DNA of 64,000 nt from assembly GCA_016165875.1 (NCBI GenBank), contig JABBOT010000009.1, positions 19,234,783 to 19,298,782 on the forward strand, in the 5' to 3' direction. A program made the translations under genes and the position numbers. Positions within the stretch are counted from its first letter, which is position 1. Each line of letters opens with the position of its first letter. Shown here piece by piece: positions 16,801 through 59,900 of this stretch. Below the pieces are notes generated by a model that saw only the letters and a list, made by a program, of their open reading frames with translations, was not told the DNA's origin and did not search any database. Origin of the DNA: Acanthopleura granulata. Taxonomy: Eukaryota; Mollusca; Polyplacophora; Chitonida; Chitonidae.

Positions 16801-19064
16801 TGATGAACCAAATGCCACAGAAGAAGAAACACAAGCATAAAAAACACACCAAGAAGGAGACACCAAAAGAGGAGGCTTTGCTCGAAACACAACGTAAGTT
16901 CAAACAGCATCGAATCGCTTAGTCTTTCTTACAATCACAATAACTGTATAGTTTTTGAAAGTTTTCAGGGCACTGGCAGACTCATATGCAACCTTTTGTG
17001 GAGAAAGTGTGGCTCACTTGCTGATTTCCATGTGGCTTTTACCGTAATTCATCAACCTTTTCAATCATTAAGTGTGCCTGACAGTTAATTTTGTCATTTT
17101 TAGGGGCATTAGTGTGGTGGATAACTTTTTTCTGAACTCAACCGATGGTCAAACAAACATTTGAGAGCCATCAACCACCTGCAGTGCACTGTTAAACTTC
17201 TATGATCGAGTTAACCCACAACCCCTCACCCTGTCTCACCAACTTCTCCTGGAGCATTCCGACCATGAGAGCTGCTCAGGTGATCAAAAGGGTAGACGAA
17301 TTGGGGTATGTGCGGAAAGCTTGTGAACGCTTTCGGCGTTTATGTGAGGAAAGTGTTATGTTACGTTTGTAATGATTATTGTGTGGCCTTAAGAAGGATA
17401 GTTTCAGGCATTTGCTGCTTTCTGTGGTCAGACAGTGAGACCTTGATATAGATTGTATGCAGTATTCAGTTTATACCAGTTGTCATGGTGACGTGGATTA
17501 GTGTCCTGTCTGGCATTTGTTACCATGATTTTTTGTCATGCAGCAAATCAGCCACATGTGGGGACGCAACAAAGGAGACATTATCTTGATGTGAAAAAGA
17601 AAAAAAAAAACCCAAATTCTTGGCAATGTTGAAGACCATAACCATTTCAAATGTAGATGTTCTCTTTGCAGCTGATAAACCAAACGATGCTGGTCATGAT
17701 CGAAGGAAAAAGCAAGATAAGAAAGAGGAAAAGGACAAAAAGAAGAAGAGAAAAAAGAAGAGAAAAGTAAGAAGTATTATTTATGTTTGTGCATGAATAA
17801 ACTAGTCTTACTGTAATGATTTCAGTTATGCCCCTGGTAGTACATGTGTTTTGATGAGATAATTCAGAAAAATCTTTCTTATGAAGTGCTAATTTTGAAG
17901 TAAAATGAGTGAATAACTTTAATGGTTCTTGTGTGACTTCATGTCAAGAGGCACTTTGCTGAAACAGTTTGTTTTTTAAAGTACAAATTTGCTGCTCTGG
18001 GTGGCAGCCCTTGTGGGTATCTGAAATAAAATGAATCAAACTATTCCAAAATTGGAATGGTCATGATTAATGAATCACAGAATGTGTGTTTGTACATTGT
18101 TCTGGGCCGTCTGGCTCAAAACCGATTAATGAATCACAGAATGTGTGTTTGTACATTGTTCTGGGCCGTCTGGCTCAAAACTGATTGTGTCATTTTGGAT
18201 TTCTGGTTGGAAACAATTTCCAGTTATGAAAAAAAAAGCCAGATAAGGGATCGGTATGGTCTACTTACCCTAAACAGTGTGTGTTAGTTTAGATCATTTG
18301 GCTTGAATATATGTGGGACTCAGAAATCCAGAGATTTTTTGTTGGACATGAGCCTTGAATTATTTTCAGATATCCTTTTCTCATCAAAGAAAAATGAAAA
18401 AAAGAAATATTGGAAGACCAAGTTATCACATGATTGCATCTCAAGTTTACAGTCCCATTTTCACTGTGTCGACAACTACAAGTGCAACCGCAACTGCAAC
18501 ATCGATAAATTAGAACATTATTTAGTCTGTAGTGCCGTCCCCACTACTGACACCATGTTGCGACAACATTAGGACGACATCCATGTTGCCGAGCAGAGAT
18601 AGAGCTGGTTCTGTTTTCTCAGGGACTGTTTTCGTGTCACCGACAGTGGGGACGTCGTGATAGTTGCAGTTATAGTTGAAGTTGTGGTTGTCGTGGGGAT
18701 GGGCCTTTCTTCTCTTTGAACACATCTGTGTATGTTGTCAGAAGCACAGTCCAGGACATAAATCTTCAGCAGCATCCGACTGCACACCTTTAAGTAAAGG
18801 GTTTAATTACCCTAAATGACCAAAAATTTCGTCCATGCCTAAGTTTTGTGAGAGTAGGAAGGTGTTTTGATCTCAACATCAAAAGGGTAAGAAGTATTTC
18901 TTCATGGCATTTAATGGCTGCTAAAACTCTCCTTTTCTTAGCGAAATTTTAGGATCATTCACAGTATTTCACGGTTATAAAGACCATTGTGTTAATGTGT
19001 GTCTTTGTGTTTTCAGAAGCACAGCCCAGAACATGTGTCAGCTGCTGCAGAGACTGGATCTTAA
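10630..19064 (+). CDS. MED19: Mediator complex subunit 19 (MED19), 6 exons
   Basis: MED19 is a subunit of Mediator, which links transcription factors to RNA polymerase II in the nucleus. Coding exons: 10630-10810, 15229-15385, 16266-16365, 16782-16893, 17672-17766 and 19017-19064. Splice phases 1,2,0,1,0 agree at every junction and give 693 nt, or 230 aa. Family hallmarks seen: RSPAYPRTDTTGTL and TTISLGK (residues ~20-45), NLMSVYGMEHAYNKF and KEELSAFLPHLPGYID (exon 2), SVVDKPPITGKELVPL and GFRLHPGPLPEQYRLM (exons 3-4), then a very lysine-rich tail (residues ~155-220) ending KHSPEH as in other MED19 proteins. Intron 1 (4.4 kb) holds a MITE-like element and a SINE fragment; intron 2 holds a large fold-back element; intron 3 holds a full SINE. 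The ATG is preceded by an A-rich leader and a CCAAT box. A second candidate terminal exon lies at 18742. Confidence 0.95.
11280..11660. mobile_element. MITE-like element with ~40 bp terminal inverted repeats (MED19 intron 1)
   Basis: The left end reads 'gaggggatcacacagtgca' near 11312. The right end carries its reverse complement, 'tgcactgtgcgatcccctc', near 11622. The arms continue inwards ('ggagtttttaaac' against 'ttttaaaacccc'). The element is about 370 bp with no coding sequence. A related end ('aaacccctgcacagtg' followed by 'cccgagg') lies at about 50374-50400. Confidence 0.65.
11982..11995 (+). promoter_or_regulatory. CTCF-like motif in MED19 intron 1
   Basis: 'gcaccaggtggcgc' matches the published animal CTCF core (CCASYAGRKGGCRS) at 13 of 14 positions by eye. 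Binding is not shown, and a single motif occurs by chance in long DNA. Confidence 0.3.
14468..14570 (+). mobile_element. SINE 3' fragment (MED19 intron 1)
   Basis: This is a 5'-truncated copy of the main SINE: 'tttcctcccaccataatgct', 'gccgccgtcgtagaagtg', 'ttcttgagtacggcgtaaaa', ending in an (aaat)n tail. Confidence 0.8.
15229..15385 (+). CDS. MED19: MED19 exon 2
   Basis: Acceptor 'gattacag', donor 'AACAG|gtagcc', phase 1 to 2. It encodes the central MED19 domain with STNLMSVYGMEHAYNKF and VKEELSAFLPHLPGYID. Confidence 0.95.
15650..16175. mobile_element. Large fold-back element (MED19 intron 2)
   Basis: Two arms of roughly 160-170 bp are inverted copies. The left (about 15655-15820) has 'gtgagtaaaaagatcatt' and 'tgttttgattgtatggtggg'. 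The right (about 15985-16165) has 'acccactatacaatcaaaac' and 'aatggttttttcactcac'. The loop is about 150 bp. No open frame, so it is probably a non-autonomous DNA transposon. A related half-copy lies at about 53640-53800 in RMND1. Confidence 0.7.
16266..16365 (+). CDS. MED19: MED19 exon 3
   Basis: Acceptor 'ttattttcag', donor 'GGCCCA|gtaagt', phase 2 to 0. It encodes LRSVVDKPPITGKELVPL and LTGFRLHPGP, the most conserved MED19 block. Confidence 0.95.
16488..16756 (+). mobile_element. Full-length tRNA-derived SINE (MED19 intron 3)
   Basis: The tRNA-like head has an A-box-like 'tggctgaggggattagc' and a B-box-like 'gagttcaagccc'. The body has 'gcaacctgcggatggtca', 'cggtttcctcccaccataat', 'ttcttgagtacggcgtaaaa' and an (aaat)n tail. 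It lies 25 bp before exon 4, so its tail sits next to the acceptor region. Confidence 0.85.
16782..16893 (+). CDS. MED19: MED19 exon 4
   Basis: Acceptor 'tttttgtctcag', donor 'ACACAAC|gtaagt', phase 0 to 1. It encodes LPEQYRLMNQ followed by the first basic run KKKHKHKKHTKK. Confidence 0.95.
17672..17766 (+). CDS. MED19: MED19 exon 5 (lysine-rich tail)
   Basis: Acceptor 'ctctttgcag', donor 'AGAAAA|gtaaga', phase 1 to 0. It encodes DKPNDAGHDRRKKQ and then almost only K, R, E and D, as in the MED19 C-terminal tail. Confidence 0.9.
18065..18182 (+). repeat. 59-bp tandem duplication (MED19 intron 5)
   Basis: Two nearly identical copies begin 'gattaatgaatcacagaatg' at 18065 and 18124 and end 'gtctggctcaaaac'. 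Confidence 0.85.
18468..18705. mobile_element. Inverted-repeat element (MED19 intron 5)
   Basis: The left arm has 'gcaaccgcaactgcaac' and 'gtccccactactgacac'. The right arm has the inverted forms 'gtgtcaccgacagtgggga' and 'gatagttgcagttatagtt'. The loop carries 'catgttgcgacaacat', itself nearly palindromic. No coding sequence. Confidence 0.5.
18742..18819 (+). CDS. MED19: Candidate alternative terminal exon of MED19
   Basis: After the acceptor 'tatgttgtcag', a phase-0 exon would encode KHSPGHKSSAASDCTPL plus eight more residues and stop at TGA 18817-18819. It begins like the 19017 exon (AAGCACAG.CCAG.ACAT). A copy of the exon-5 donor ('gtaagaagtattt') sits at about 18887 between the two. The pattern fits a tandem duplication running from the end of exon 5 to exon 6. 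Either terminal exon completes a plausible MED19 tail; transcripts are needed to say which is used. Confidence 0.5.
   Translation, partial: KHSPGHKSSAASDCTPLSKGFNYPK
19017..19064 (+). CDS. MED19: MED19 exon 6 (terminal)
   Basis: Acceptor 'gtgttttcag'. Phase 0, encodes KHSPEHVSAAAETGS and stop TAA at 19062-19064. The final codons are already homologous to the 63-bp repeat unit that follows ('cagagactgg' against 'cagagatggg'). Confidence 0.8.
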   Translation, partial: KHSPEHVSAAAETGS

Positions 19065-20255
19065 CCCCAGCTGAGGTTCTCAGTGCTGTGTCTTACCAGT
19101 GACAGACATAAGGTCTAAACCGTAGCTGAGATTGTCAGTACTGTGTATAAAGTTATTACCAGTGACAGAGATGGGGTCTAAACCCTAGCCATGCCCGCTG
19201 AGGTTCTCAGCGTTGTGTGTGAACTACTCGCCAGTGACAGAGATGGGGTCCATACTCCAGCTGAGGTTTTCAGCATTGTGTATAACTTTTATATCAGTGA
19301 CAGAGATGGGGTACAAACGGTGTATAAACTACTTATCAGTGACAGAGATGAGTGACAGCTGATATTCTCAGTGCTGTGTGCACGCCTTTTACCTGTAACA
19401 GAGTTGGGTTCCAAACTCCAGCTGAGGCTTTTAGTACAGAGATGGAATACAAACCACAGCTAAGATTCTCAGTGCAGTGTGCATAGCTCTTACCAGTGAC
19501 AGAGATGGGTTCCAAACTCCAGCCAAGATTCTCAATGCTGTGTGCACGCCTTTTACCTGTAACAGAGATGGAATCCAAACCACAGCTGAGATTCTCAGTG
19601 CAGTGTGCATAGCTCTTACCAGTGACAGAGATGGGTTCCAAACTCCAGCCGAGATTCTCAATGCTGTGTGCACACCTTTTACCTGTAACAGATATGGAAT
19701 CCAAACCACAGCTGAGATTCTCTGTGCTGTGTGCACACCTTTTATCACTAACAGAGATGGGGTCCAAACTCCAGCTGAGATTCTCAGTGCTGTGTTCACA
19801 CTTCACTCCAGTGACAGAGATGGGTCCCTAACTCCAGCTGAGGCTTTCAGTGCTGTGTGAACACCTTTTGCTAGTAATAGAGATGGGGTCTGAACCTTAG
19901 ATGAGGTTCTCAGCATTGTGTATAAACCACTTACCAATGACAGGGATGAGGTCCAAACCCCAGCTGAGATTCTCAATGCTGTGTGCACACCTTTTACCAG
20001 TAACAGAGATGGGGTCCAAACCACAGCTGAGGTTCAGTGCTGTGTGCATACCTCTTACCAGTGGCAGAGTTGGGGTCCAAACTCCAGCTGAGGTTCTCAG
20101 AGCTGTGTGTAAACTACTTACCAGTGACAAGGATGGGGTCCAAATCGCAGATGGGGTTCTCTGGGCTGTGTGTAAACTGCTTACTAGTGACAGAGATGGG
20201 GTCCAAATAGCAGATGAGGTTCTTAATGGTGTGTATAAACTAATTACCAGTGGCT
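19045..20255 (+). repeat. 63-bp tandem array from the MED19 terminal exon into its 3' UTR
   Basis: About 19 copies of a 63-bp unit containing 'ccagctgagattctcagtgc', 'tgtgtgcacaccttttacc' and 'agtaacagagatggggtcc'. The first unit overlaps the last MED19 codons and stop. Because 63 is a multiple of 3 and most units lack stops, long open frames appear on both strands; they follow the MED19 stop and are not evidence of a second gene. If the AATAAA at 20894 is used, the array lies in the mature 3' UTR. Confidence 0.85.
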
Positions 20256-20599
20256 GGTGTGTGTGCCTCTGCACCACTGCAAGGTGGCCCTGCCCAGGGC
20301 ACACTTTACATGGTGACCCATATCCCCAGAAACTCCAGTGTAGTGGAGCTTGGACTGTGTGAATGTACATATGTTTGTCTTTTCTGTCATGTCTGGATTG
20401 ATATGTTTGTCTGCACAGTGGATTGATTTATTTGTTGACACCTTGGATTTGGCAATTGTGTTTAATCAGAAGAAATGCCTGCACAGTGGACTTGTGCCAC
20501 CAGCTAAATGTCTTGTTTGTCAACCCAGTGGATTCAGGCGATTCTCTGCATTGTGGATTTACATATAGATGTTTGTGTACACTGTGGACGTACAGAATC

Positions 20600-21480
20600 T
20601 ATGTGACATGAAAATCCGAATGACTACATCAGTGGCTTTTGCCACCAGAGAAATGACTTGGAATGTCTATGCCTTGTCCATCGTAGATTCAGGAATGTTT
20701 ACAGTGTGGAACAAAGGGTTGTGCTTAAGGTGAAAAAATGTCTATGCCATCAGGTACTGTAAGTGTCATGAAATGTCTACGTTGTGGATTTTTGAAGTGT
20801 GCGAATGAAATATACATGTACACAGTAGTTACACAGGCAGCATTGTAAATATCATGAAATGTCTACCCCCCGAGATTGTGGTAAAGTAAATGTAATAAAA
20901 TGTCTACACTGTGACATCTCTGTACATATAAAGGGAATGAAATGCCCGTACAATTTCTTCACAACCTCAGGCGATGTCTGCATGTAAACCCGGAAATGAT
21001 CTAGTAAACGTGAAACTGTCTAATCTTCTGTATGAATTAAAGGCGTGGTTGAAACGTCATGAAGTGTCTGTACACAGTACTGGTAAAAACAAATGTCTGA
21101 ACACTGTTCCTGAAAAACGTGGTTAAAGTTATGAAATGCCACCATTGCATGATTGTAGAGCTCTTCTTCATTTATAAAATGTATAGGGAAAATCCTGTAT
21201 TGTCTGTTACACTATGGTTTTAGTGTAGGAAGTGTCAGGCAATGTCTACACTGTTCATGAGAAATATGGGTAAAATCTAGAAATATCAGTACACTGTTCA
21301 TGTAAATTGTGGTACAAAATCATGTATTGTCTGTTACACTGTGGTTTTAGTGTAGGAATTGTCAGGCAATGTCTACTCTGTTTATGAGAAATGTGGGTAA
21401 AGTCTAGAAATATCAGTACACTGTTCATGTAAATTGTGGTACAAAATCATGTATTGTCTGTCCACTTCTCGCGTAAAACA
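20600..21480 (+). repeat. Degenerate repeats downstream of MED19
   Basis: Many copies of 'gaaatgtctacactgt'-like blocks at irregular spacing. A clear ~134-bp tandem duplication lies at about 21199-21465 ('tgtctgttacactgtggttt', 'tgtcaggcaatgtctac', 'aatatcagtacactgttcat'). Non-coding. Confidence 0.65.
20894..20899 (+). terminator. Possible poly(A) signal of MED19
   Basis: AATAAA within 'tgtaataaaatg' is the first canonical signal found by eye downstream of the MED19 stop. It lies about 1.8 kb after the stop, beyond the 63-bp array. Usage is inferred only. Confidence 0.3.
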
Positions 21481-22043
21481 TGGACGAAACCATGAGACGT
21501 CTTTAGTTTGTGTTGAATTATCATAGGAACAGAAGTGTGTTAAAAGGCAGGCATTGATTTCTGTGTTTGAGCAGGAGTGTGATTATCACACCCTTGGCAG
21601 AAGACCAAGTGTGTAATTAGCACACCTACAATGTAGATTCACACTTCCCAAATTCGTCATTGTTTCAGCTATGTGTTACTGGCACACCTAGATTTTGTTT
21701 AAGGAGTATGCTAGGCGTGAGATAGGTGATAATGAAGGCCTCAAATATGAAGGCGTGGGAATAACGAAATACTGCTCGTGTGTGTGTGCATCTGTGTGTG
21801 CGTGTACGCGCTCGCTCAGTGGACGTGTGTTATGAGAATTTGAACTGAGCAGAAGCCATGTGTAATGCAATTACACCACGGAGCTTCACACCACAGATTT
21901 ACAGTTATACTTACCATAAGTCACCTAAATCCTTTGCCCAAAATAGTGCCTTTCTAGAGGCATATAAATGTCATAAAGAATTACTTTTTGTGCTGAAAAT
22001 TGCATGATCTTACCTTCAAAACCAACCTATCAACACCTTATTA

Positions 22044-22138
22044 ATTCATTGTGGGAGGAAACCGGGCACTGCTAGCTGCCGCCCCGTAAGTGAAATATTC
22101 CTGAGTTCGACGTAAAATACCAAGCAAATAAATAAATA
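22044..22138 (+). mobile_element. SINE 3' fragment
   Basis: 'gtgggaggaaaccgggcact' is followed by 'agtgaaatattcctgagttc' and an (aaat)n tail. The body is partly rearranged, since the first piece is in reverse sense relative to the tail. A reverse fragment follows at 22163. Confidence 0.6.
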
Positions 22139-22162
22139 CGCCCTACTCAAGGTGAGGAATAT

Positions 22163-22245
22163 TATGGCAACCATAATGGTGGGAGGAAACGGGGCAGAGC
22201 CACGACCATCCGATGATCGCTGGCAGACCTTCCCCCAGAAGTTGT
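22163..22245 (-). mobile_element. SINE body fragment, reverse
   Basis: 'ccataatggtgggaggaaac', 'cacgaccatccgatgatcgc' and 'tggcagaccttccc' match the reverse complement of the main SINE body. Tail and head are missing. Confidence 0.65.
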
Positions 22246-23639
22246 CGTACCTAGAGGCGTAACATGCATATTAAATGGTATGACCCTTTGAGTACTGAAC
22301 ATTGCAGCTCAGAACTTGAGCAAGACTACATGTAGACATGCCAGAGGTTAGCTGCAGGTAGCTCCAAAGCTCTTACACTCATGACGTTGATAGCAAGAGC
22401 TTCGGGGCAACCTGGAGCTATCCAGAGGTCTCGTAAAAATTGTATAACTCTTCCAAGGATTTGGAATTTGGTTGGCCTTAAACTGGACACTTTCCACACA
22501 CTTCAGTGGAGATATGTGTTGCAGTAATGACAGAAACCTTCCTGATGCGTAAAGCTTCAAATGAGTCTGATATTTTCAACATCGATATTAGCATACCGTA
22601 ATTCTTCTAATTATTGGGACGTTGATTTGCTCTTTTCGCACATGTCTAATTTATAATACTATTTACGGTATGGGAGCCCACACATGGGTAAAATATTTGA
22701 TGGGTAAATGTTTTTGTGGGATATGCTTTATGTTGATGGGCTCCATGTAACCGAACCCCTTACCCTCTTACCCCCACAGAAAACCCCCATGGTATACCTG
22801 TACATATGTATGTGTAAACTACATTGTTAGTTATTAATATAAATAGGACATTCAATATCATTAATACACATATCCCACAGGGTTTTGTTATATAAGAACA
22901 ACATGCACCGTTCAGTTAATTTGTGTTACCAGCGTATTAAAGGAATCTGTACCCATTGTTTTTTTGTTTTTGTTTTTTTTTTTTTGTTTCTTTGTTTTTT
23001 TTTTTAAAGAAAATTACAGGTAGCCTAGGCAAAAGAGATTTGTTAAGAAATGTACTCATAGTAAGGTCTGTCTTCATCTTCATTCCCGTGTTTATATCAG
23101 GTTAAAAGTAAAGCTAATGGCAAACACAGATCTTTATATACACTGTTGACCAAGTGACTCCCGGATTCTGTTTACAAATGTTCTAGGTGTACATATGGCA
23201 ATATTTCTTACAGTTTTGTAAATAAAGACAAAACATATGCCCAATAAATGTTTTCCTTCTTGACTTATACATTGGACTGATGGTGTGTGTGGTTGGGTAG
23301 CATATCTGGAATTGTCAGCCCAGGGAAGTGAGAAATGCACCGGGCTTGTCTCATTGTCAACTTTTTAGAGTGCTGCCTTACAAGAACGCCGCCCCAAAGA
23401 CATTATTCTTGACACTTAAATTCTCGGACTGCTCTTTCCTGCCGGAAACAAACCGAAGGAGGCACCAAAATACCGGACTTTAATACCTTTGGCATTGAAC
23501 CCAGGATACACAAGATTGAACCCAGGATCTGGTTACGAAGCGAACAACCTACTCAGTCATAACAACGCAGAGTCCTACATTCGTATTCGTATGCTAGTGG
23601 GAAGTTTTGCTTTAAAGGCTCAGAATACCTGATAATCAC

Positions 23640-24060
23640 TTACCGCCACATCGGTTATATTTCAGCCGTATCTTGGCGGTAAAGGATGAGAATGAACAAT
23701 TATGGTTCGAGACCCCATCGGCAATATTTCAGCCATATCTGTTGTAAAAGATAAGAAAGAGCAATTATAGGATACCGAATAGTCCGTGAAGGAACATAGA
23801 ATGAACAGTTTTGGCTTAATTGCACATCGTAATATAATAAAATGAACGATTCGAATAAGTGTTTAAGTCTTCACCACAAATCGCAAACATTTAAGGCGTA
23901 TCTTGGCCGTAAACAATTCAAGCGTTTCGTGACGGAAAACATTTCAGGCATATCGTGGCGATAAGCATTTCAGGTGTAGCATGGTAGCAAACATTTCAGG
24001 CGTATTATGGCGATAATGACCTCATCGGCAGTACTTCAGACATAACGTGACGATGAACGT
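23640..24060. repeat. Cluster of short degenerate repeats ('aatatttcagccatat' type)
   Basis: At least eight imperfect copies of a ~25-35 bp block of the form 'catttcaggcgtatcgtggc' or 'cggcaatatttcagccatat'. Single copies of the same motif occur at about 920, 42190, 48770 and 56150, so it is also dispersed. Confidence 0.6.
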
Positions 24061-25245
24061 ATACGATTCAAGTAAACGATTAATGCATTACAAGTGCACA
24101 TGGGTATGATTTGAACCATGCATGTCGTGGCGCCAAAGTATCAACTGGATTGTCTGAACAATTAAGCATGTATTAAATTCAATAGCTGAGTCAGTCAGAG
24201 CTATCAGTGTCACGCGTGGTTTTCAAAGCGGTGTGCCAATGGTTCAAATCGATACAGCAGTACATGCACACGTAGGCCTATATATTTGTTGTTGTATCGC
24301 TAGAATCGTTCAGGATATTAACCAAGTACGTAAATCTGAATGTGAATCCTTGACAAAAAAATGATCCTCATGGCTGGTTCAGATACATTGACTGAGCGTT
24401 CCCTGGATGTTTACAGTGAAGAAAGTGACGTGTTAGGTCTTTCTTCATTGTGTCTCTCTATTTTGTTGCCAAATGGAAAGGCTGCGCGGGGAGTTGTTAA
24501 CAATAAGGCAGTTGGAAGATTGTGTGGCCAAAAATTGAGGTTTTGATGTAGGCCTATAATAGTAGGCATTTAACTGAGCTATATAATTTCCGTTGCCTAC
24601 AAAGTAGAATCTATAGAGGCCGCATCTAAAGTCTTCTGTATGTAATTGGAATTATATATACATGTATACATAGGAAAATACATAGTTGAACTTTCTGATG
24701 TAGAGAACAGAGATAACAAACAAAATCTTCTCAATTTTCTACGTGATTGTATTTTAGATCAGCAGTTCCGAGTTGTCATTCTCACTAGGGTTACTGTAAG
24801 TACAAGCCGAGTAAAGTCATGGTTTTATATACAAAACTGTAAGTGTTCACTTGACAACAGCGAGCGTGTTAGGAGATGAATCAAAAAGCTGCGAGAATAT
24901 ACAGATTTAACGCACTGAAAAAATCAAATAGGATAATCCTAGTAAATAAGCACAGTAACTCCGAAGAAATTCATTTTTACGCTCTCAATATTCGGACTTT
25001 AATTAAGTCCTCCTCAGGAGAAGCGTGCCATTTTTGTTTATTTATCATGTTAGGCTTTTCGGTGGATCAACTAAATAAACCTAGTACATGATCATACGTA
25101 AGGACAGTTGTTTACCCTTGGTTATCCTGTTAATGACGAGGTCTAGTTCGCAGCTGTTGGCCTTAAATATATGAACGAATGATAACTGATTGTTATTTAA
25201 TACGGGTTGCGTTTTGCAATAAATAATACTCCTTTAACTTCCACC

Positions 25246-25470: not shown

Positions 25471-25532
25471 TAATATATATCGTCTCATTTACATTTGTCT
25501 TCTATAGACGAAAATTTTTAGGAAAGGAAAAA

Positions 25533-28668: not shown

Positions 28669-28728
28669 TGATGTGATGTGATGTGATGTGATGTGATGTG
28701 ATGTGATGTGATGTGATGTGATGTGATG
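28669..28728 (+). repeat. (ATGTG)n microsatellite
   Basis: Twelve uninterrupted copies of the 5-bp unit ATGTG. Confidence 0.97.
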
Positions 28729-31240: not shown

Positions 31241-31244
31241 CACG

Positions 31245-31252: not shown

Positions 31253-31274
31253 GGGTATAGTCTTCTGGAGACAT

Positions 31275-32625: not shown

Positions 32626-35600
32626 GTAAAAGTTCTAAATTTCTGTAAATCTGCAGTTTCTGTTAAATAAGTAATTCTTATATATCTGTAACTTCCAGTA
32701 CCTGAACCTGTAAAACACAGTTATAAGACAGTAATGTGACAAACAGGATTCATTCAACTCATGTACATATGGAGATATAGCCTAGCAACACATTGTAATT
32801 GTTTGCCACTGGTATACAAATGTTCAGGTAAAGCACTGATTTGAAGGGCCACGATAACCCCGCCTGGGAAGTGGCCATCAATCCAATATTTAAACAGTCT
32901 TTAAACCTTTCGGAAAGTAGATGAAAAACTTATGAAAAAGGTTTTACCCGTGCTTGTCTGTTCGTATAAGATTTACTTTTACGCTCTGAAAGAAACGTCT
33001 CCTCAGCAACCAGTCAAATGTATCCCCAGCAACCAATAAACTGTACTCCCATGACAAATCAAATGTGTCCTCAGCAACACCTCAACAGTATCCTCAGCAC
33101 CACATCAAATGTATTCCCAGCAACAAATCAAATGTATCCTCAGCAACACCTCAAATGAATCCTCAGCACCATATCAAATGTATTCCCAGCAACAAATCAA
33201 ATGTATTCCCAGCACCATGTCAAATGTATTCCCAGCAACAAATCAAATGTATCCTCAGTGGCATGTCAGATGTATCCTCAGCAACAAATCCATTGTGTCC
33301 TCAGCGCCATGTCAAATATGTCCTCAGCACCATATCAAATGTATAGATTGATTCAATAATTATTTCATCTTAGTAATCATAATTATAATTCATTACACGT
33401 CACAGGCCTAGGATTACTCACATGCTCCTCTAATGTGATGTAAATAAATTATTTTGATGTTGGTTCACGCTCGAAAACTGAGATAGCCATCTATGATCTG
33501 CAACCTGAAGTGCTGAGATAAAATTTGTACCGGTATATCAGCGAAAAGTTACATGTATACACCGAACAATTTACACATGGGATAAAACAAGGTTCTTGGG
33601 GTTTTCATCCTGCCAGTGTAAGTCTATATACTTGTATAACACTATTCAGTATTGTGTAACCCCTTGTTTCTACTTGTGAATGCAAAGAAGTGAAATGAAA
33701 TGAAAATAATGACGATGTGTTGTTGTTGCTGCTGTTTTGTACGCAGATGAAACCGGTGTGTCCCTGGTCGGTGTGCATTACAGCATCAACAAGCCCATCC
33801 TGAATGTGGCAGCGGGGAAGTACAACTATGACATTAACACCAAGACAGGTTAGCATCTGAGTTGTTCAAAGGATGACATTTATCTTTTTACGAAATGTGC
33901 AATGCAGCTGGTTACTTGTCGGGCCATCACTCATTTCCAGATTCACACTGAAAAGTCTTATGCATCATCACTGTTAAAGAAAAGAAAGAGCCGACGTTAA
34001 ACAGAGGGTGAATTAAAAAAGAAAAGATCAACAACGGTAATTACAGCAAGCAGGCTTAAGTCAAAATCGACATCGTCGTTTTCTTATCTTTTAGAGCGGA
34101 TACTTACAAAAGTAATTTTCCAAGTGGGAATTGTCTGCACAAATAACTAACCGTTAAATAAGAGAAATATAACTCTACTGATATAATACAGGCAAAGAAG
34201 TCGGGCACGGAATCGTAAGTTTCTTCTTTTTCAGTGTGAAAATTTTTAATCGACCGATGATTTATCCCAGTAGGATTTTTGTTCAACGCGCATTATTACA
34301 GCGCAGTAATAAAGCCATAAATATGACGACATGCATGCAGTGAAAAAAGTAAGAAAGAAAACATGACGAGGAATTTCATACAGTAAAAAAGTCATACTTG
34401 ACTTTGTCGTTCTCTTCTCATCCATTTGACAGGAGGCAAATGGGTGCACGAGAACTCTCAAGTGCACTTATCCCCAGGAGACAAAGTCTACTACTGGGTG
34501 TACTGGGTGAAGGAAGGGAGAGGTGAACAGTTACTGGGGCAGGTGTGGACAGGTGAGGTCATCTCCAGGAGACAAAGTCTACTACTGGGTGTACTGGGTG
34601 AGGGAAGGGAGAGATGAACAGATACTGGGGTAGGTGTGGGCAGGCGAGCTTATCTCCAGGAGACAAAGCCTACTACTGGGTGTACTGGGTGAGGGAAGAG
34701 GTGAACAGTTACTGGGGTAGGTGTGGACAGGTGAGGTCATCTCCAGGAGACGAAGTCTTCTACTGGGTGTACTGAGTAAGGGAAGGGAGAGGTGAACAGA
34801 TACCGGGCCAGGTGTGGACAGATGAGGTCATCTCCAGGAGACGAAGTCTACTACTGGGTGTACTGGGTGAGGGAAGGGAGAGGTGAACAGATACCGGGCC
34901 AGGTGTGGACAGGTGAGGGCATCTCCAGGAGACAAAGTCTTCTACTGGGTGTACTGGGTGAAGGAAGGGAGAGGTGAACAGTTACTGGGGTAGGTGTGGA
35001 CAGGTGAGGTCATCTCCAGGAGACAAAGTCTACTACTGGGTGTACTGGGTGAGGCAAGGAAAAGGTGAACAGATACCGGGGTAGGTGTGGACAGGTGAGG
35101 TCATCTCCAGGAGACAAAGTCTACTACTGGGTGTACTGGGTGAGGGAAGGGAGAGATGAACAGATACCGAGCAAGGTGTGGACAGGTGAGGTCATCTCCA
35201 GGAGACAAAGTCTACTACTGGGTGTACTGGGTGAGGGAAGGGAGAGGTGAACAGATACCGAGCCAGGTGTCGACAGGCGAGCTTATCTCCAGGAGACAAA
35301 GTCTACTACTGGGTGTACTGGGTGAGGGAAGGGAGAGGTGAACAGTTACTGGGGCAGGTGTGGACAGGTGAGGTCATCTCCAGGAGACAAAGTCTTCTAC
35401 TGGGTGTACTGGGTGAGGGAAGAGAGAGGTGAACAGTTACTGGGGTAGGTGTGGACAGGTGAGGTCATCTCCAGGAGACAAAGTATACTACTGGGTGTAC
35501 TGGGTGAGGCAAGGAAAAGGTGAACAGATACCGGGGTAGGTGTGGACAGGTGAGGTCATCTCCAGGAGACAAAGTCTACTACTGGGTGTACTGGGTGAGG

Positions 35601-38600
35601 GAAGGGAGAGGTGAACAGATACCGAGCAAGGTGTGGACAGGTGAGGTCATCTCCAGGAGACAAAGTCTACTACTGGGTGTACTGGGTGAGGGAAGGGAGA
35701 GGTGAATAGATACCGGGCCAGGTGTGGACAGGTGAGGTCATCTCCAGGAGACGAAGTCTACTACTGGGTGTACTGGGTGAGGGAAGGGAGAGGTGAACAG
35801 ATACCGAGCCAGGTGTCGACAGGCGAGCTTATCTCCAGGAGACAAAGTCTACTACTGGGTGTACTGGGTGAGGGAAGGGAGAGGTGAACAGATACCGAGC
35901 AAGGTGTGGACAGGTGAGGTCATCTCCAGGAGACGAAGTCTACTACTGGGTGTACTGGGTGAGGGAAGGGAGAGGTGAACAGATACCGAGCCAGGTGTCG
36001 ACAGGCGAGCTTATCTCCAGGAGACAAAGTCTACTACTGGGTGTACTGGGTGAGGGAAGGGAGAGGTGAACAGATACCGAGCAAGGTGTGGACAGGTGAG
36101 GTCATCTCCAGGAGACAAAGTCTACTACTGGGTGTACTGGGTGAGGGAAGGGAGAGGTGAATAGATACCGGGCCAGGTGTGGACAGGTGAGGTCATCTCC
36201 AGGAGACGAAGTATACTACTGGGTGTACTGGGTGAGGGAAGGGAGAGGTGAACAGATACCGAGCCAGGTGTCGACAGGCGAGCTTATCTCCAGGAGACAA
36301 AGTCTACTACTGGGTGTACTGGGTGAGGGAAGGGAGAGGTGAATAGATACCGGGCCAGGTGTGGACAGGCAAGCTTTTGTCGCGAGGACAAAATAGGGTA
36401 ATGAATTTTTGAGACGAGGTGTTCAAATCTTTTTAAGTGTTTAAGTATTCAAGATAAAATGGAGGAAACAAATTAACAAGTTGATAAACTTTGCATCAGT
36501 ATTTGATTGCAAACTTTCGTTTTTTCATAGTTCCTTCTGCAGTCACCCAAAAGCCAAAAACTGTGACGTCATCGGGATCGGGATCTAACAAGATTCCGGA
36601 AGTAGTACACGTGAGCCAGTCAAATGCAGGTATGTGCTAAAAATAGCATAATTATGTGAAACTGTAAATCCCAACGGTTGGCTCGTATTAAGAATAAAGT
36701 TAATGTGTTACAAATAAAAGAAAATAATGGCAAAGTATTTTCAGTTAACAATACAATTTATGCTTCATTAATTCCTTAACCCTGCACTTGACTTAAGGCA
36801 GTAGGAAGCAGAGGACGACGTGAAAGATAACATTGGAAGGTATAGAGAAAGGACAAGAATAGACAATGTTCGGAGAACTAATAACCGGAAATTGTAGCAT
36901 GCTAAACATGCCATAAAAGATAACATTTCGACACGTCCACATAACACGTAAGTTGTGAGTGTCAAGACCTAAGAAGGTCGCCGGAAAGTGGATTTCTGTA
37001 TTAACTGCTAGGTTGTTTTTCCCTCCATGCCTGTGCAAATAAAGGCTGGAATTTGAGAGTGAAGCCGCAATCGCCCGGATGTCCGTGGTCTCGAATGCGT
37101 GTAAGCTGTTCACATTCAGTTTAGACTTACGAAGCCTGATAACCAATGGAACAGTTGTGCTCTACTTTCCTGTTTGCTGTAGCCTCATTTAGCCCCTCTG
37201 ATTCTGATCCTGGCACAGCCACGCACTGCACCTCTTACCCCTGCGTCATCTTCCGAGACGACTTTGACACCTTGAACCTGAGCACCTGGCAACACGAGAT
37301 CACTGCGGGAGGCGGCGGGGTAAGTTGATATAGCGAACACAAGATCACTGGGGGAGGTAGCGGGGTAAATTAATGTAGGCAACACGAAATCACTGCGGGA
37401 GGTGGCGGGGTAAGTTAGCGTAGCGAACATGAGATCACTGCGAGGGGCGGCGGGGATAGTTCATTTTTACTGATGAAGTTGATATAGGCAACATAAGATA
37501 ACTGTAACAGGCGACGGAGTTAGGCAACCTGAGATTACTGCATTGGCTACGAGTAAGTTAATTCATGCAACGCGTGATTATTCCGGGATATGGCGAAAAA
37601 AGTTTTTATATGCAATTTGATCAATGTATGCAATTTGATCGGTTGTGTATTTATCGTTCCTCAGATTTACCCCAATTTGTGTATTTACAGCTCCCCCAGT
37701 TTAACTCCAATTTGAATTTTTGTGGTTTCTTGTTCCCTATGCTAGTCTGTGCCTGATACCCTATTGATACAGCCTTCATACATGTTCGGTTTTCATTTAT
37801 ACTTATGTGTGAGTGTCGAATTTACATGAAATCCCGGATTATAGTTTCGTTTTATGACAGTCCTCACTCCGCATCATTTCTCCACACGTATATTGTTTTT
37901 TCTTCCGACCAATGCTTAACTGGATGCGTGGCTTTATACGGTCTTGTCAGTATTACAGTTTTTAAATTTCTCTAATTTATAGCTCTGTGTGTGTCATCTG
38001 TATATGAAATCGCCGCTAGCTCCTCGTCATTGCAATCCTTTTCTTGCCTACAGAACTGGGAGTTCGAGTATTACACAAACAACAGAAGCAACAGTTATGT
38101 GCGCGATGGGATGCTCTTCATAAAACCCGTGAGTCCCGTTATATTTATTTATTATATTATATTATTATTATTGTAGTTATGTATGTATGTAGGTAGGTAG
38201 GTAGGTATATAGGTATGTATGTAGGTATGTATGTATCGCCATACTTAAGAATTATACACTTGCGCGAGAGGTTAGTACTCTAGGTGGAGGAATCCCGGTG
38301 TGCCTGGGTTAGGCCTAAACCAACAAGCTTTGGCAAGTTACTGTCGAACTTTCCCTCGGGTCACGCACAGATATGCACACTGATTTGGTTGAAGGCAAGT
38401 TGTCATCCATGAACTTTACGCTGTGCCAACGGTCACACGAGAGCCAGAGACCGCTTACTGTCACCAAGGACCTCACGTGCAGTGAGAGCGAGGTAACCAA
38501 TGAGTTCCCAGTGAGTTCTGAATCCTAACATCCTGTCCCAGTATTTGAAGGACAAGCATGTTTGACCACTAGACGACCGCACACTCATTCCCGGCCAGAA

Positions 38601-50469: not shown

Positions 50470-50479
50470 TAGATGGCGC
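50470..50479 (+). promoter_or_regulatory. CTCF-like core near the RMND1 3' end
   Basis: 'tagatggcgct' matches the core recognised by insect and vertebrate CTCF, but the flanking positions fit poorly (about 10 of 14). Weak. Confidence 0.2.
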
Positions 50480-50924: not shown

Positions 50925-53900
50925 CTGAAAAAAACAAAGTCAAAGTTTGTGACTGAAGGAAACCTTGCAGAGCTCTGAGGAGCACTGCCATTTGTGAGTG
51001 ACGGAAGCCTGGCAGATCTCTGGGGAAGCGTGCTGTTTGTGAGTCTGGGAAACCTGGCAGATTTCTGGGGAACCGTGCCATTTATGAGTCTAGGAAATCT
51101 GGCAGAGTTCCAGGGAACACTGCCGCTTGTGAGAGGAGGAAACCCGGTAGATCTCTGGGGACCTCTGTCATTTGTGAGTCTGAGAAACCTGGCAGAGCTC
51201 TGAGAAAACTGCTGTTTGTGAGAGGCGGAAACCTGGCAGATCTCTGGGGAAAAACTACTGTTTGTGAGAGGAAGAAAGCTGGCAGATCTCCAGGGAAAAT
51301 CGCTGTGTGTGAGTGGAGGAAACCTTGCAGAGCTCTATGGAACACAGCTGTCCATGTAGAAGAAACCTGGCAGATCTCGGGAACACTACTCTTTGCGAGT
51401 GAAGGAAACCTGACAGAGCTCTGGGGAGCACAGATGTGAGTGAATGAGGGAAACATGACAGAGCACTGGGGAACCCTGATGTCTGTAAGTGGATGAAACC
51501 TGGTCGATGTCTGGGAAACAAGGCTTTTGTGAGTTAAGGAAGCTTGGCAGAGCTCTGGAGAACACTGCTGTGTGTGAGTGGAGGAAACCTGTGAGAGGTC
51601 TGCCTTACCTCCACCATAATCAACAGTATGATCATCCACTCCAGCCTGATGTGATGGTTGTCATTGAGGTGGGAGATCAACAGTTCTGTCAGTTCACAGC
51701 AATGGTTCAACTTCTCGTTCATCACCTGTAACAGAAGCACACTCGGTAGAGATAAGCACTTTTGTCAGTTCACAGCAATGGTTTAACTTCTCGTTCATCA
51801 CCTGTAACAGAAGCACAGTCGGTAGAGATAAGCACTTCTTTCAGTTCACAACAATAGCTTAACTGCTGGTTCATCTTTAGAATACAAATTTACCTATCTG
51901 CAACAACTTTACTGTAGAAACAACCAATTAGAAGGCATTGAACAATGGCAACTAAGCAAGCAGATGAGAGTGGTTTGCCAGTTGGCCATGTTGGTGAGCA
52001 CTGAACTTGATCCGCTGTTGTCGTAGCAGAAGAGTTAAGAGGCAAAAAACAATGTCATAAAATACAATTTCTGGTGCTATTACTTAGATTTTCCCCTAGC
52101 AGGATATCACCCTACCTTCCCGAAACCTTCAAAACACCTTTCTCATATCAAGAGACCCCAGAAACAAAATGTCTGTCATTTGTATACCGTACTCACCTTT
52201 GTCCTCTTGGGAATATTGAGGTAGACAAACGCCTGCTGATACAAAGTCTCCAGTTGTTCTCTGTCCCAGTAAAAGTCTGGAGGGTCCAGTAAATCTGAGC
52301 TCAGGTTGATCAAATGTCTGTGGAAAATGAGCAATGGACTTTCAACATGGTGATCAACTGTCAATAAGGACAAGGTCTATAAGTGTCTCAAGAACATAAC
52401 CAATGAATTTGGCTCAATACTGTATCAAAGTCTAAGCTCAGGTTGTTCTAGTGTCTGAAGAACATGATTCAATGAGCTTGGCTCAATACATCCTTAAAGT
52501 CTGAGCTCAGGTTGATCAAGTGTCTGAAGAACATGATCAATGACCTTGGCTCAATACAGCCTTAATGTCTGAGCTCAGGTTGATGAAGTGGCTGAAGAAC
52601 ATGATCAATGAACTTGGCTCAATACAGCCTTAATGTCTGAGCTCAGGTTGATGAAGTGTCTGAAGAACATGATCAATGAGCTTGGCTCAATACAGCCTTA
52701 AAGTCTGAGCTCAGGTTGATGAAGTGGCTGAAGAACATGATCAATGAGCTTGGCTCAATACAGCCTTAATGTCTGAGCTTAGGTTGATCAAGTGTCTGAA
52801 GAACATGATCAACGAGCTTGGCTCAATACAGCCTTAAAGTCAGAGCTTAGGTTGATCAAGAGCCCACAGAACATGATCAATGATCTTGGCTCAATACAGC
52901 CTTAAAGTCAGAGCTTAGGTTGATCAAGTGCCCACAGAACATGATCAATGAGCTTGGCTCAATACAGCCTTAAAGCCTGAGCTTAGGTTGATCAAGTACC
53001 CACAGAACATGAGCTCCTTGTATTTACTTATGTCTGAAGTGTATGTATTATTTACTTGATAGGTGTTTTATGACATACTCTACAGTACTTCACTTTTGCG
53101 ACAGCAGCCAGCATTATGATGGGAGGAAAGCCGGCCAAGTCGAGCCCAGGGGAAATCCACAACCTTCCGCAGGTTGCTGGCAGACTTTCCCACATATGGC
53201 CGGAGAGGAAGCCAGCACAACCTGGACTTGAACTCACAGCGACCACAATTAGTTACTTGTATGAACTTCAAGGGTGCTCAAGTGTCCTTTAAAGGAAAAA
53301 CATCTCCACAGCAGAAGATACTAATACACAAGATATTGAGATGCATGTACTGAAGTCTAAATTAAGATTGATCAAATGCCTCCAGAAAATAAACTCTGAG
53401 TTGGGTACATAGTACTGACTGATTGTCTACAAAAACTATTCAAGTCTTGGCGGCATAAAAAGAGAAGAACAACCAAGTCTGAGATACGTGTAAGTTTGAT
53501 CAAATTTCTGTAGCATGGAGAAATTCTTCAATCTTATCACACACAGCAATGTTAGAGCTGTGCAAAAGTTGTCAATGTTTGTAGCTAAAGCATTTAAGTT
53601 AACATGGTTAAGAACAGTTAAGAGAAAAGAGCAGACTTTAATATGGTGAGTAAAATGACCATCAAAAACGAAATGTATCTGAAAATGCCTACTCTGATTT
53701 TTTTCAGATTTTCTTTTCAAATGTTTTGATTGTATGATATGGACTTTTTGGACCACACTGAACATCTGCGTCGTCAGATTATCCACATACAATCTGTAAA
53801 TATGACTGTCAATGATCATATAAACACTTAACAATGTGCTAAAAAATAATCAACATATATAACAATGATCATGAGCCATTTTCACAAAACTTAAAAAGTC

Positions 53901-56900
53901 ACACTTTCCATAACTTTAAATAACGAGAAATGTTATGAAAAATTCATTTATGAAGTTTTGTGAAAGTTGACTCGGGTTTATACCATTTTTGAAGTCTTTG
54001 GTATGACCCGACCTGGGTTTGACCCTGAAGACAAGGTGAACAAATATTTGTACACCAACCTCAAAGTGAAGAGTTCTCCAGTTTTCTGAAGCACCTCTTG
54101 TTTAGTCATCCTGATTTTTCTGCCCACCTTCATATCCTGTAACGATGGAATATGAATATTCTTGCATATTTGGTAGCTTATTAAAGGCGGATAGACCAAT
54201 CAGAAGCCTACGATTTCCTCTGCATTGTGAAAAATGTGTGTATTATGAAGAATGTTTTGTATCCCTTAATAATCTCTGTATTTTATGCATATTTTCCATC
54301 TATAGAGAGACATTTTTGTAAATGACATCATTGATGCACTTACGGAAATGCGTGCTAAAGCATTTAATGTATCATTAACTTACCTCTAGAACAGGTTCTA
54401 TTGACTCCACAAATTTGTCCAAGGACGCTTCCCAGATTCCTAACTTGACAGAGAGGGAGAGAGCATTAGAGAACGCAAATTTGATGAGGGTGGTCTGAGT
54501 AGAGCCGTCTTCTGTTTCCATGTCTTGATGCTCCTGGATGTGAATAGTGCCAGATGTGAGGTTGGGAGACTTTCTGTAACAAGACAAACACGAACGTGAG
54601 GCTGGGAGGCTATCTGTAACCAAACACACACAGATGTGAGGCTGGGAGACTTTCTGTAACCAAACACACACAAATATGAGGCTTTGAGACTTTCTGTAAC
54701 CAAACACACACAAATGTGAGGCTGGGAGACTTTTTGTAACCAAACACACACACATGTGAGACTGGGAGACTTTCTGTAACCAAACACACACAAATGTGAG
54801 GCTGGGAGACTTTCTGTAACCAAACACACACAGATGTGAGGTGGGGAGACTATCTGTAATCAAACACATACAGATGTGAGGCGGGGAGACTTTCTGTAAC
54901 CAAACACACACAGATGTGTGGTTGGGAGACTTTCTGTAAACAAACACATACAGACATGAGGCTGAGAGATTTTATGTAAACAAACACATACAGACGTGAG
55001 GCTGGGAGACTTTCTGTAACCAAACACACACAGATGTGAGGCTGGGAGACTTTCTGTAAACAAACACACACAAATATGAGGCTGGGAGACTTTCTGTAAC
55101 CAAACACACAAATGTGAGGCTGGGAGACTTTTTGTAACCAAACACACACAGATGTGAGGCGGGGAGACTTTCTGTAACCAAACACACACAGATGTGAGGC
55201 TGGGAGACTTTCTGTAACCAAACACACACAGATGTGTGGCTCAGAGAACTTTTGTAACCAAACACACACAAATGTGAGGCTGGGAGACTTTCTGTAACCA
55301 AACACATACAGATGTGAGGCGGGGAGACTTTCTGTAACCAAACACATACAGATGTGAGGCTGGGAGACTTTCTGTAACCAAACACACACAGATGTGAGGC
55401 TGGGAGACTTTCCCTAACCAAAACACACACAGATGTGAGGCTGGGAGGCTTTCTGAAACCAAACACATACAGATGTGAGGTTGGGAGACTATCTGTAACC
55501 AAACACACACAGAAGTGAGGCTGTGAGACTTTCTGTAACCAAACACACACAGATGTGAGGCTGGGAGACTTTCTGTAACCAAACACACACAGAAAAGAGG
55601 CTGGGAGGCTATCAGTAACCAAACACATACAGATGTGAGGTTGGGAGACATTCTGTAACCAAACACACACAGATGTGAGGTTGGGAGACATTCTGTAACC
55701 AAACACACACAGAATTGAGGCTGTAAGACTTTCTGTAACCAAACACACACAGAAAAGAGGCTGGGAGACTTTCTGTAACCAAACACAGACAGAGGTGAGG
55801 TTGACAGGCTATCTGTAACCAAACACACAGAGTCAAACTGACGTGAATAGTGCCAGATGTGAGACTGGAAGACTTTCTGTAACCAGTTCCTGTTTCTCTA
55901 ATAAGACACAGCCCATGGCTTCATAAGAATTGATTCCAGATCAAAAGTTGATGTATTCAGTTATCACATACATTACAAAAAATGGCTGTCACCAGTTATT
56001 TTCTGAAATACCTAAAGTCATATTATTTGTTGCTCGTTTCTCTTAAAAATGCAGACAGGCTCAAGTATGAAAGTAGTGTTCCGAGACATATACTCTTAAA
56101 CAACACTCCTTTGCTCAATCAAACTGACCAATTTCACCCTGTAAATTGCCACGATATGGCTGAAATATTGCCGATGTGGCCTTAAGCCATAGTCATTCAT
56201 TTATTCATTCACCATGTGAATACTTCACATTCTTCCTCATACTACAAACATCAACAGTGGAAATGTCACTCACTGTGTACAGACATCATACTACAAACAT
56301 CAACAGTGGAAATGTCACTCACTGTGTACAGACATCATACTACAAACATCACAGTTGGGAATTTCACTCAATGTGTACAGACATCATACTACAAACATCA
56401 ACCGTGGAAATGTCACTCACTGTGTACAGACATCATACTACAACCATCACAGTTGGGAATGTCACTCAATGTGTACAGACATCATAATACAAACATCAAC
56501 AGTGGAAATGTCACTCAATGTGTACAGACATCATACTACAAACATCAACCGTGGAAATGTCACTCACTGTGTACAGACATCATCCTACAAACATCACAGT
56601 TGGGAATGTCACTCACCGTGTACAGACATCATAATACAAACATCACAGCTGGGAATGTCACTCACTATGTACAGACATCATAATACAAACATCAACCGTG
56701 GAAATGTCACTCACTGTGTACAGACATCATACTACAAACATCACAGTTGGGAATGTCACTCACTGTGTGCAGACATCATAATACAAACATCACAGTTGGG
56801 AATGTCACTCACTGTGTGCAGACATCATAATACAAACATCACAGTTGGGAATGTCACTCACCGTGTACAGACATCATAATACAAACATCACAGCTGGGAA

Positions 56901-59900
56901 TGTCACTCACTATGTACAGACATCATAATACAAACATCAACCGTGGAAATGTCACTCACTGTGTACAGACATCATACTACAAACATCACAGTTGGGAATG
57001 TCACTCACTGTGTGCAGACATCATAATACAAACATCACAGTTGGGAATGTCACTCACTATGTACAGACATCATAATACAAACATCACAGCTGGGAATGTC
57101 ACTCACTGTGTACAGACATCATACTACAAACATCACCGCTGGGAATGTCACTCACTGTGTATAGACAAAGTCCATCTTCTCCAGCTCATGTTCTATCAGG
57201 CTGGCACTGTACCCATTCTCAGAGAACTTCTCCACAAATTTCAGCACCTCAACTCTCTGTCAAACCAAAATCCTGATCATTAGGGACCAATAGTGAAAAA
57301 CAATGTGAACATAAGCTGGATGAGCAAACAGACAGACGGACAAACAATGATTGAAATTGAAAATCAATACTAAAAATTATACATCTTAACGTAGTCTTTA
57401 CCTGTTTTGATATCATGTTTCGATGAACAAAAACTGTTCGAGAGGCATTTTGAAAGAAAGGTTAAACACCAGACGGGCAGGTGGACAACAGGACAATTTG
57501 CCAATACAGTCTTTGATGAGTAGAGCTAACAATCATACAGTTTACAGTTTTCTGTGAGACCTTGCTGGGTCTCACCTCGAAAACCTCTTTTCAACGAATT
57601 CTTTATTTCACCTATTCTTTAGCCTGTAGAAATGAACTTTAAGAAGCACACGAAGGCCTTAAAATGGCACTTGTCATGCCAACACTTAAGTTTTTCTCGT
57701 AAGGACTTAATCAAATTTCACAAAAAACTCTTAATTTATAAATCAATCAAAATTAATCAAGCAAACTATGTCACTTGAAAAAGCTCAACTTTAGATGAAA
57801 TACGGTAGTATGCAAACTGACAGAACTTATTTATGCAAATATTGTTTAAGAGTTTGTGTAACCAGATACCGCTGAAATGTTGTTTTATACCGAGTCAAAT
57901 TCGAGAATGCGCAGGGATTTGACGAGGTATGACAGGAGGTTCAGCAGTATCGGGTTACACAACAAATACCAAGACGAACGTGCTAAGGCCTATTCTACCC
58001 CCAAAACTGAAGAAAATATGGAAAAAAACGCATATTTTATGCTGCCGATGTCTTTTACTGCCTCCAAAGAGGTCATGAATTTTACACCAATCAATGGCAA
58101 GCTTCATCCACTGCAGCTGACCTAGTTATTTCAAATGACATTGTGTCCTACTGTTGCATGGCCTAGGAAGGTAAAAGTTTGCTATACGTGTATTGTGACG
58201 TCACACCTCTGAGCTCAGATTGGAATGTCATGAAACATAACGGGTTTTTTTCGTTGTCATGACGTTTGGGTTTGAAGCAGGAAAAATGTAATCACAAATG
58301 TATTAAGCATAAATTATGTGAAATAACATTTTCATCACTGAAGACAATTCTGAAATTTCACTTCTATATACATAATATAAACTGTAAATGCAAATCTATC
58401 AAGTATACAAGTTCAAATCCTTTCATTTGCAAAAATAAACAGCACAAAAGAATATTGTTCACGGAGGTAAACGTACCAGGGTAGACTATTTATTTTACGA
58501 CTGTTTCTTCACAATTATTTCACCTATGTGAAGAAGGTCAGGTTTATGGGTGGAGACAGATGGAGTGCATGGGGTAAACCAATGACCATCAGTACGTATC
58601 TGAAAAACCTCATGATTAGTGCATGGAGGAAATCGCTCTCTTTTGCCAGATACCTGTGCTTTACTAAAAGTCACAGACATACCGAGGACACCTAGATTTG
58701 AACCAGTGACCAAAAGTAGTCTTGGCCAGTGCAATACTATAGCCGAATGAGCCAGTGGTACTTCACTCTACGATACCAAAAGACCCAACCTCTGATAATA
58801 TCTGATAATAAGGCATCAAAAACTCCTACTTCTGTCTCTGGCATGTTCCAAAACACAGCACAGCCCTCCCTAAAACAAAACATCAAAGACTAAGGTGAGA
58901 AAGATGGGATACAATGCATCACAGAACAAAGAGGTTTAGAGTCATCTCCCCTTTCAAAACTTCAAAACTGGAGGTAACAAAGGTACAAAAAGAGTGCTTT
59001 GCCTCAGAGACACCAGATGGCACTAGTCTAACATACAAAAGGTGACACATACCCTTAGCGCCATCTAGTGGCTGAAGGGGAAAAGACGCAAAGTGACAGG
59101 GCTTGTTATTTGTATTTGATAAGTTCTGGGTTAAATTACACCAATGTCTGGTTAAATGGCCAGATCTACCAGCAGTGCAGAAGTCACTATTTAGTTTTAA
59201 TACCTATAGCTTTCTTCAGACAGGTTTCAATTATTTCTGTCCACATTTTTGATTTTCTGTCATTTAAATCACATGTAAATGTGGCAAGTTGGAACTCAGC
59301 AGTATGGATAAAATTTTCCAACACTGACACAATTATCTCAAGACGGCCAGAAATACTGGTTCAATTAATACTTTAACTCACTACTCTTAGACTTACACCT
59401 ATCTTGAATGTGCATATGTCGCAATTATGCCAGGTTTCTTTGCAAGCTTGGTTTTTGTCAACGCTACATTTGTATATTTCTCCAAAAGCACAGCCGGTTG
59501 GCACAGGTACACATGAGGGAATTACCTCACTAATGAGAATTACCAACTGTGAATACACACGCCTCTGCATTTACATAGTGTTTATTAGCTTGTCGCTAAT
59601 ATTTGTCTGACACGTATACCATTTCTTGTGCAGACCTGCAATAGCAACATTGTGGTGTACTATTGTGAGAGGGCTATCAGCTTTGGTGCATCGAAATACA
59701 ATGTTGACAAATCCAACTAACTGAAAAGAAAATCATCCATGCTTAAAACACCACATGGAACAACATCGCCATACACGTTGTATATGAACGAATCAAACTT
59801 TATTAAGCTCAAATCGCTAACTGGTGATGAGGCAATGAAAATAAACACATGTATAAGATGGCAGTACAAGAATTTACACAGGAGTAGTAAAACAGCTTAC

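Follow-up and report, generated by a model that had tools for sequence, protein, structure and literature searches.

Why do several tandem arrays in neighbouring genes have repeat units that include an exon edge of their own host gene? The question is raised by a 64,000-nucleotide stretch of the genome of the chiton Acanthopleura granulata (C9:19234783-19298782, contig JABBOT010000009.1; hereafter the window), for which an initial annotation, made from the sequence alone, had listed seven such arrays in three adjacent genes. From the anatomy of these arrays, the protein-level use of the copy nearest the exon, their occurrence in six genes and the absence of a fixed register within the unit, we infer that they are very probably mirage minisatellites, that is, duplications that straddled a splice site by chance and would have been tolerated, grown and become anchored by their exonic copy.

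Arrays spanning exon-intron borders

In the assembly that we sampled (606.5 Mb, 87 contigs), arrays were called with Tandem Repeats Finder (TRF), and those with a period of 20 or more were counted. Three genes of the window were modelled, namely MED19 (+), GNBP/LGBP (+, from exon 3) and RMND1 (-, from exon 5); the models contain 42 splice junctions with consistent phase, and all three yield an open frame once spliced. TRF recovered all seven arrays at the places where they had been reported. Six of them, in GNBP and RMND1, hold a splice junction of the host gene within the unit, so the claim of border-spanning arrays in more than one gene stands for these two. It does not extend to MED19, where the array lies in the 3' untranslated region (3'UTR), across the stop codon and not at a splice edge. 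The six arrays and the exons to which they belong are as follows.

34433..34552, + strand: GNBP (CBM39) exon 3, donor between 34552 and 34553 (CBM39 match, splice model, chiton orthologue)
34470..36369, + strand: GNBP exon 3 donor array, 91 bp x 20.9 (TRF)
37183..37319, + strand: GNBP exon 5, donor between 37319 and 37320 (splice model, chiton orthologue)
37288..37455, + strand: GNBP exon 5 donor array, 45 bp x 3.7, unit of exon 5 end plus donor (TRF, 37291-37455)
57156..57256, - strand: RMND1 exon 5, donor after 57156 (gene model; the frame joins exon 6 as VYTQ/KSPN)
56237..57167, - strand: RMND1 exon 5 donor array, 49 bp x 19.0, unit of 12 bp exon plus 37 bp intron (TRF)
54384..54573, - strand: RMND1 exon 6, acceptor before 54573 (gene model)
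54551..55829, - strand: RMND1 exon 6 acceptor array, 40 bp x 32.0 (TRF)
52197..52317, - strand: RMND1 exon 8, acceptor before 52317 (gene model, octopus alignment)
52381..52997, - strand: RMND1 exon 8 acceptor array, 68 bp x 9.1, unit of ~26 bp exon plus 42 bp intron (TRF)
51609..51725, - strand: RMND1 exon 9, acceptor before 51725 (gene model, octopus alignment)
51673..51875, - strand: RMND1 exon 9 acceptor duplication, 76 bp x 2.7, unit of ~51 bp exon plus 25 bp intron (TRF)

The GNBP exon 3 unit consists of ~83 bp of the exon end and 8 bp of intron. The RMND1 exon 6 unit carries the AG, ~23 bp of exon and, as judged by eye, a branch-like CTCAC with a pyrimidine stretch. At RMND1 exon 8 the TRF array ends 63 bp before the exon, and a diverged unit lies in this gap. 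Directly upstream of the array at RMND1 exon 6 is an older copy (window 55840-55890, boundary 55876). It includes ~14 bp more of the exon than the 40-bp units do, which would fit a longer initial duplication before the 40-bp array formed.

Sampling elsewhere brought the total to ~360 kb. The only roughly evenly spaced set consists of 21 stretches of 10 kb on contig C1 (L001-L021, 210 kb). We further sampled 40 kb as flanks of positive loci (L022-L025), eight kinase exons picked by eye from multi-exon-looking rows and not strictly in order (L034-L041, 15.2 kb), and eight long kinase loci (29.8 kb); L022-L025 and L034-L041 are non-random because they were picked beside positives or around kinase exons. 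In the sampled loci, exon recognition relied on Pfam (nine families), solved structures and inspection by eye. For this, 103 of the best 150 open frames were aligned and scanned, with overlapping frames mostly omitted. L017, which has many long overlapping open frames and looks transposon-like by eye, was left out of this exon survey. Array ends without recognised exons were checked by eye for 16 arrays, in L001-L021 only.

The evenly spaced stretches hold 37 arrays, two of them with a recognised junction. There are 12 arrays in the 40 kb of flanks and three array regions in the 15.2 kb of kinase exons, with one junction-bearing case in each set, and no arrays in the eight long kinase loci. 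The counts outside the window, among them 3/49 for stretches and flanks, are lower bounds, because arrays beside unrecognised exons are missed. The four outside cases are listed below.

L002:434-1695: AP3B1-like acceptor array, 63 bp x 20
L003:302-1274: ACADSB-like donor array, ~98 bp, GT in 9/9 boundary copies found
L025:3345-7072: KAT7/KAT6-like donor array, 79 bp x 47, GT in 45/45 boundary copies found
L036, which matches PKN: PKN-like donor array, 81 bp x 9.7

In total, ten border-spanning arrays were found in six genes on three contigs (C9, C1 and C45), six at donors and four at acceptors. Junction arrays are thus spread over the genome and not local to the window. Arrays of period 20 or more are about twice as dense in the window as in the 21 stretches (24 vs 11.3 per 64 kb). 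The biggest array, L022:480-5037 (59 bp x 79, 4.6 kb), lies downstream of the AP3B1-like gene, and no coding exon was recognised at either end when open frames were read by eye.

The units are unrelated in sequence, as had been proposed from the window: none of 45 unit pairs exceeded z > 4 over shuffles, which rules out the spread of a single satellite family and bears out independent amplifications. The exonic share of the unit ranges from 0.14 to 0.91 and is indistinguishable from uniform (Kolmogorov-Smirnov P 0.37, n = 10). DNA folding of nine units, the PKN unit being outside the set, revealed no excess of hairpins (z -0.92 to 1.52), and expansion driven by hairpins is therefore unsupported.

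Other repeats of the window include the MED19 array, which contains no splice junction and whose first, degenerate unit runs over the final codons and TAA. MED19 itself was identified on the plus strand by eye; a minus-strand Pfam scan for it yielded just two weak matches below the cut-off. Intron 9 of RMND1 consists almost wholly of a 45-bp array that comes within 17 bp of the donor and 20 bp of the acceptor, and that by eye resembles a piece of a sequence like a short interspersed nuclear element recurring in the genome sample. A perfect (TGATG)12 pentamer repeat lies at window 28669-28728.

19017..19064, + strand: MED19 terminal coding exon, ending in TAA (gene model)
19045..20207, + strand: MED19 3'UTR array, 63 bp x 12.3 (TRF 19436-20207; degenerate copies by eye from ~19045)
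50945..51591, - strand: RMND1 intron 9 array, 45 bp, no junction seen in the unit (TRF)

The copy that probably serves the exon

In 10/10 arrays the conserved protein was obtained from the exon-proximal copy, which is the first copy for donors and the last for acceptors. The GNBP model is identical to the protein of Liolophura sinensis, the top-listed relative, at 302/360 positions (84%) and aligns with it through both array junctions (...EQLLxQVWTV and ITAGGGG/NWEF). The RMND1 model aligns gap-free with the octopus protein at the exon 8 and exon 9 junctions; the exon 5/6 junction falls in a gapped, poorly conserved stretch where the octopus alignment is uninformative. For ACADSB and AP3B1, the spliced pieces cross the array junction without a gap when aligned to solved chains, and the KAT exon end matches KAT7, with an equal score for KAT6A.

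The remaining copies often retain the splice dinucleotide. We defined boundary copies by <=9 mismatches over the 28 bases that span the junction, a definition that favours copies with an intact site. In the window, GT was present in 14 of 21 boundary copies found at GNBP exon 3, 3 of 4 at GNBP exon 5 and 16 of 19 at RMND1 exon 5, the real donor being the first copy each time; AG was present in 27 of 33 at RMND1 exon 6 and 7 of 10 at RMND1 exon 8, the real acceptor being the last, and in both copies at RMND1 exon 9. Over all arrays, GT or AG was retained in 147/172 boundary copies, a figure biased upward because the copies were found by boundary similarity.

Splicing to the distal sites would seldom leave an open frame. 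In 5/5 donor arrays tested (PKN was outside the set), read-through to any distal copy hits a stop first, and upstream acceptor copies add stops in 3/4 acceptor arrays (up to six copies each). The exception is RMND1 exon 6, whose upstream copies are open in frame; there, every third of the first six copies would lengthen the frame, free of stops, by a multiple of 40 codons. Protein diversification via distal splice sites was therefore rejected, as a stop precedes every distal donor tested and only RMND1 exon 6 could be extended.

Chance, growth and rival explanations

A simple sequence of events would account for these arrays. An ordinary tandem duplication of 40-100 bp would straddle one splice site by chance, which fits because the junction lies anywhere in the unit, the units are unrelated and the nine units show no special folding. 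The exon-proximal copy would preserve the original exon and splice site; since it does, the messenger RNA would be unaltered and the duplication tolerated as extra intron, into which the remaining copies would turn. Unequal exchange or slippage would then enlarge and homogenise the array, and purifying selection would hold the exonic copy as a permanent, undecayed member of it, which would keep the array alive and growing.

The relationships among copies are consistent with such exchange. Intronic copies diverge from one another at some 6-16% of positions, a figure that rises to 27% in GNBP exon 5. Eight arrays have more than three intronic copies, and in seven of these the exonic copy resembles the intronic ones roughly as closely as they resemble each other. 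Similarity to the exonic copy declines with distance in 7/8 arrays by sign, significantly (P < 0.05) in three. Because of this similarity and the distance trend, the exonic copy seems to belong to the exchanging set.

Is chance alone enough to place so many arrays on junctions? We modelled random seeding either with each array beginning as one unit dropped at random or, alternatively, with the whole array dropped. With single units dropped, the window has six junction arrays (RMND1 exon 8 counted) vs 0.97 expected of 24 (P 0.0005; P 0.0012 if 50 junctions are assumed instead of 42), and strict TRF intervals give 5 vs 0.81 (P 0.0004), these P values being inflated because the window was picked for this pattern. 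With whole arrays dropped, five were seen vs 3.6 expected (P 0.28). Outside the window, where a junction density of 0.3-0.7 per kb was assumed, 4/52 arrays are junction-bearing vs 0.8-1.9 expected (P 0.01-0.13 depending on that density), in a set partly centred on exons or positives. The window and outside excesses would favour the second of two readings offered initially, in which amplification is set off at exon edges by some process, for instance breaks at splice sites, R-loops or the re-integration of splicing products. This reading predicts a fixed register, which is absent. Moreover, donors and acceptors are both hit, the folded units show no hairpin excess, and the evenly spaced 210 kb hold only 2/37 vs 0.6-1.4 expected under the assumed density, which is not significant. 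We therefore regard an exon-edge start as unlikely.

Array length is the sole part of the pattern that still calls for a process. In the window, the evenly spaced stretches and the flank loci taken together, junction-bearing arrays have a median of 973 bp (n=9) vs 146.5 bp for the others (n=64; P 0.00013), and outside the window they are again longer (3 vs 46 arrays, P 0.0036). Among arrays of 600 bp or more, 2/3 in the evenly spaced set and 4/8 in all outside loci bear a junction, where 3-5% would be expected per array; the latter figure (P 0.00005-0.0004) depends on a 600-bp cut chosen post hoc and includes non-random loci, and it too speaks for an exon-edge start. If duplications are mirages with an exonic anchor, junction arrays would outgrow arrays without an exon edge because of that anchor. 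The stronger form of this idea, that selected exon edges anchor minisatellites so that junction arrays are re-seeded, outlive and outgrow others and rank among the chief causes of longer introns here, we put forward only tentatively.

The other reading offered initially, that arrays persist only when each unit carries a working splice site, or that copies are kept as spare or regulatory sites, is quite improbable. It draws on the upward-biased dinucleotide count given above and on KAT and ACADSB, with GT in every boundary copy found and splice-core identities of 0.990 and 1.000. These two are the only cases with a trend to splice-core conservation. In 5/7 arrays tested (GNBP exon 5 and RMND1 exon 9, with too few copies, and PKN were outside the test), conservation of the core does not exceed that of the unit's other windows: in GNBP exon 3, RMND1 exons 5, 6 and 8 and AP3B, 43 to 100% of windows are as good. 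Splice cores are not generally better conserved, which fits neutral intronic copies. Furthermore, a recognised junction is lacking in 64/73 arrays, some of which lie outside introns, and distal donors run into stops.

Several observations weigh against anchored mirages. The exonic copy of RMND1 exon 8 is an outlier (0.721 vs 0.865), and the distance gradient is reversed in ACADSB (rho +0.29) and all but absent from RMND1 exon 6 (-0.06). Long arrays also occur without a recognised junction, such as L022:480-5037 (4558 bp), L024:7200-8180 and L024:4831-5443; the latter two are intron-internal in the AP3B1-like gene, which has five arrays in L024 distant from recognised exon edges. Junction units have a higher GC content (0.465 vs 0.405), and this, rather than anchoring, could explain array length; the anchoring idea itself arose after the lengths had been seen. 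That the exon-proximal copy is the one the gene uses seems so on the basis of protein alignment. Finally, the arrays might be assembly artefacts with collapsed or invented copies, as a lancelet mirage was reported to be aberrantly assembled in a draft genome (PMC3087553). We consider this very improbable here: the intronic copies diverge to the extent given above, with gradients in some arrays, the ten arrays lie across three contigs, and re-sequencing of lancelet PGBD5 reportedly speaks against assembly error there (PMC3902484).

Lancelet mirages and the probable mirages of a chiton

Although no named system was known to the initial annotation, lancelet mirages had already been named (PMC3087553, PMC3902484). 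The passages on them describe mirage minisatellites in Adh3 and the globins BflGb6 and BflGb9 (PMC3087553), as well as in troponin C and PGBD5 (PMC3902484); BflGb6 has 3 and 6 units of 150-160 bp, and Adh3 units measure 10-72 bp (PMC3087553). The chiton arrays share their main features. Units span the exon-intron boundary, here in all ten arrays of the six genes; 5' and 3' exon boundaries are both duplicated; and many units, though not all, keep AG/GT. Mirages leave regular splicing undisturbed, and protein-level alignments would be compatible with this in the chiton. The chiton arrays differ in occurring in a mollusc and in reaching up to 47 copies and 3.7 kb. We therefore file them as mirages that are new in their taxon, copy numbers and density.

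A further trait of mirages is copy number that varies between alleles or within the soma, and the Adh3 mirage of the lancelet reportedly shows somatic length instability. In humans, a minisatellite of IFI6 (6-16/G1P3) with short units provides several splice donors at one exon, and alternative donors are used. The chiton arrays share repeated donors at one exon and differ in that their distal donors meet stops. A model in which introns are gained when AG/GT segments are tandemly duplicated is cited in PMC3087553 from Rogers 1989, Zhuo 2007, and Gao and Lynch 2009; it has in common with our arrays the tandem duplication of a segment bearing splice signals, whereas here it is existing introns that are longer.

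Among the matches listed from the open-licence literature there was no report of a mollusc mirage, only part of that search having named chitons or molluscs. A cone-snail paper from the listing concerns simple repeats within introns and not border repeats (PMC3862624). Human segmental duplications have variable internal tandem repeats, with minisatellites at exon-intron boundaries (PMC2812944). There the repeats form new introns or alter coding in recent paralogues, whereas in the chiton the genes are conserved and the repeats stay intronic.

Ten cases in ~360 kb of one assembly suggest that mirages can be a common feature of a genome, whereas the lancelet passages describe single genes. The arrays are natural tests of how the spliceosome chooses one site among dozens of near-identical ones, and they may mislead gene prediction and short-read assembly. 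They also supply raw material for intron growth and perhaps for intron gain. The length association, if true, would tie exon constraint to repeat growth; and if anchoring is true, purifying selection on exons would drive the expansion of neighbouring non-coding repeats.

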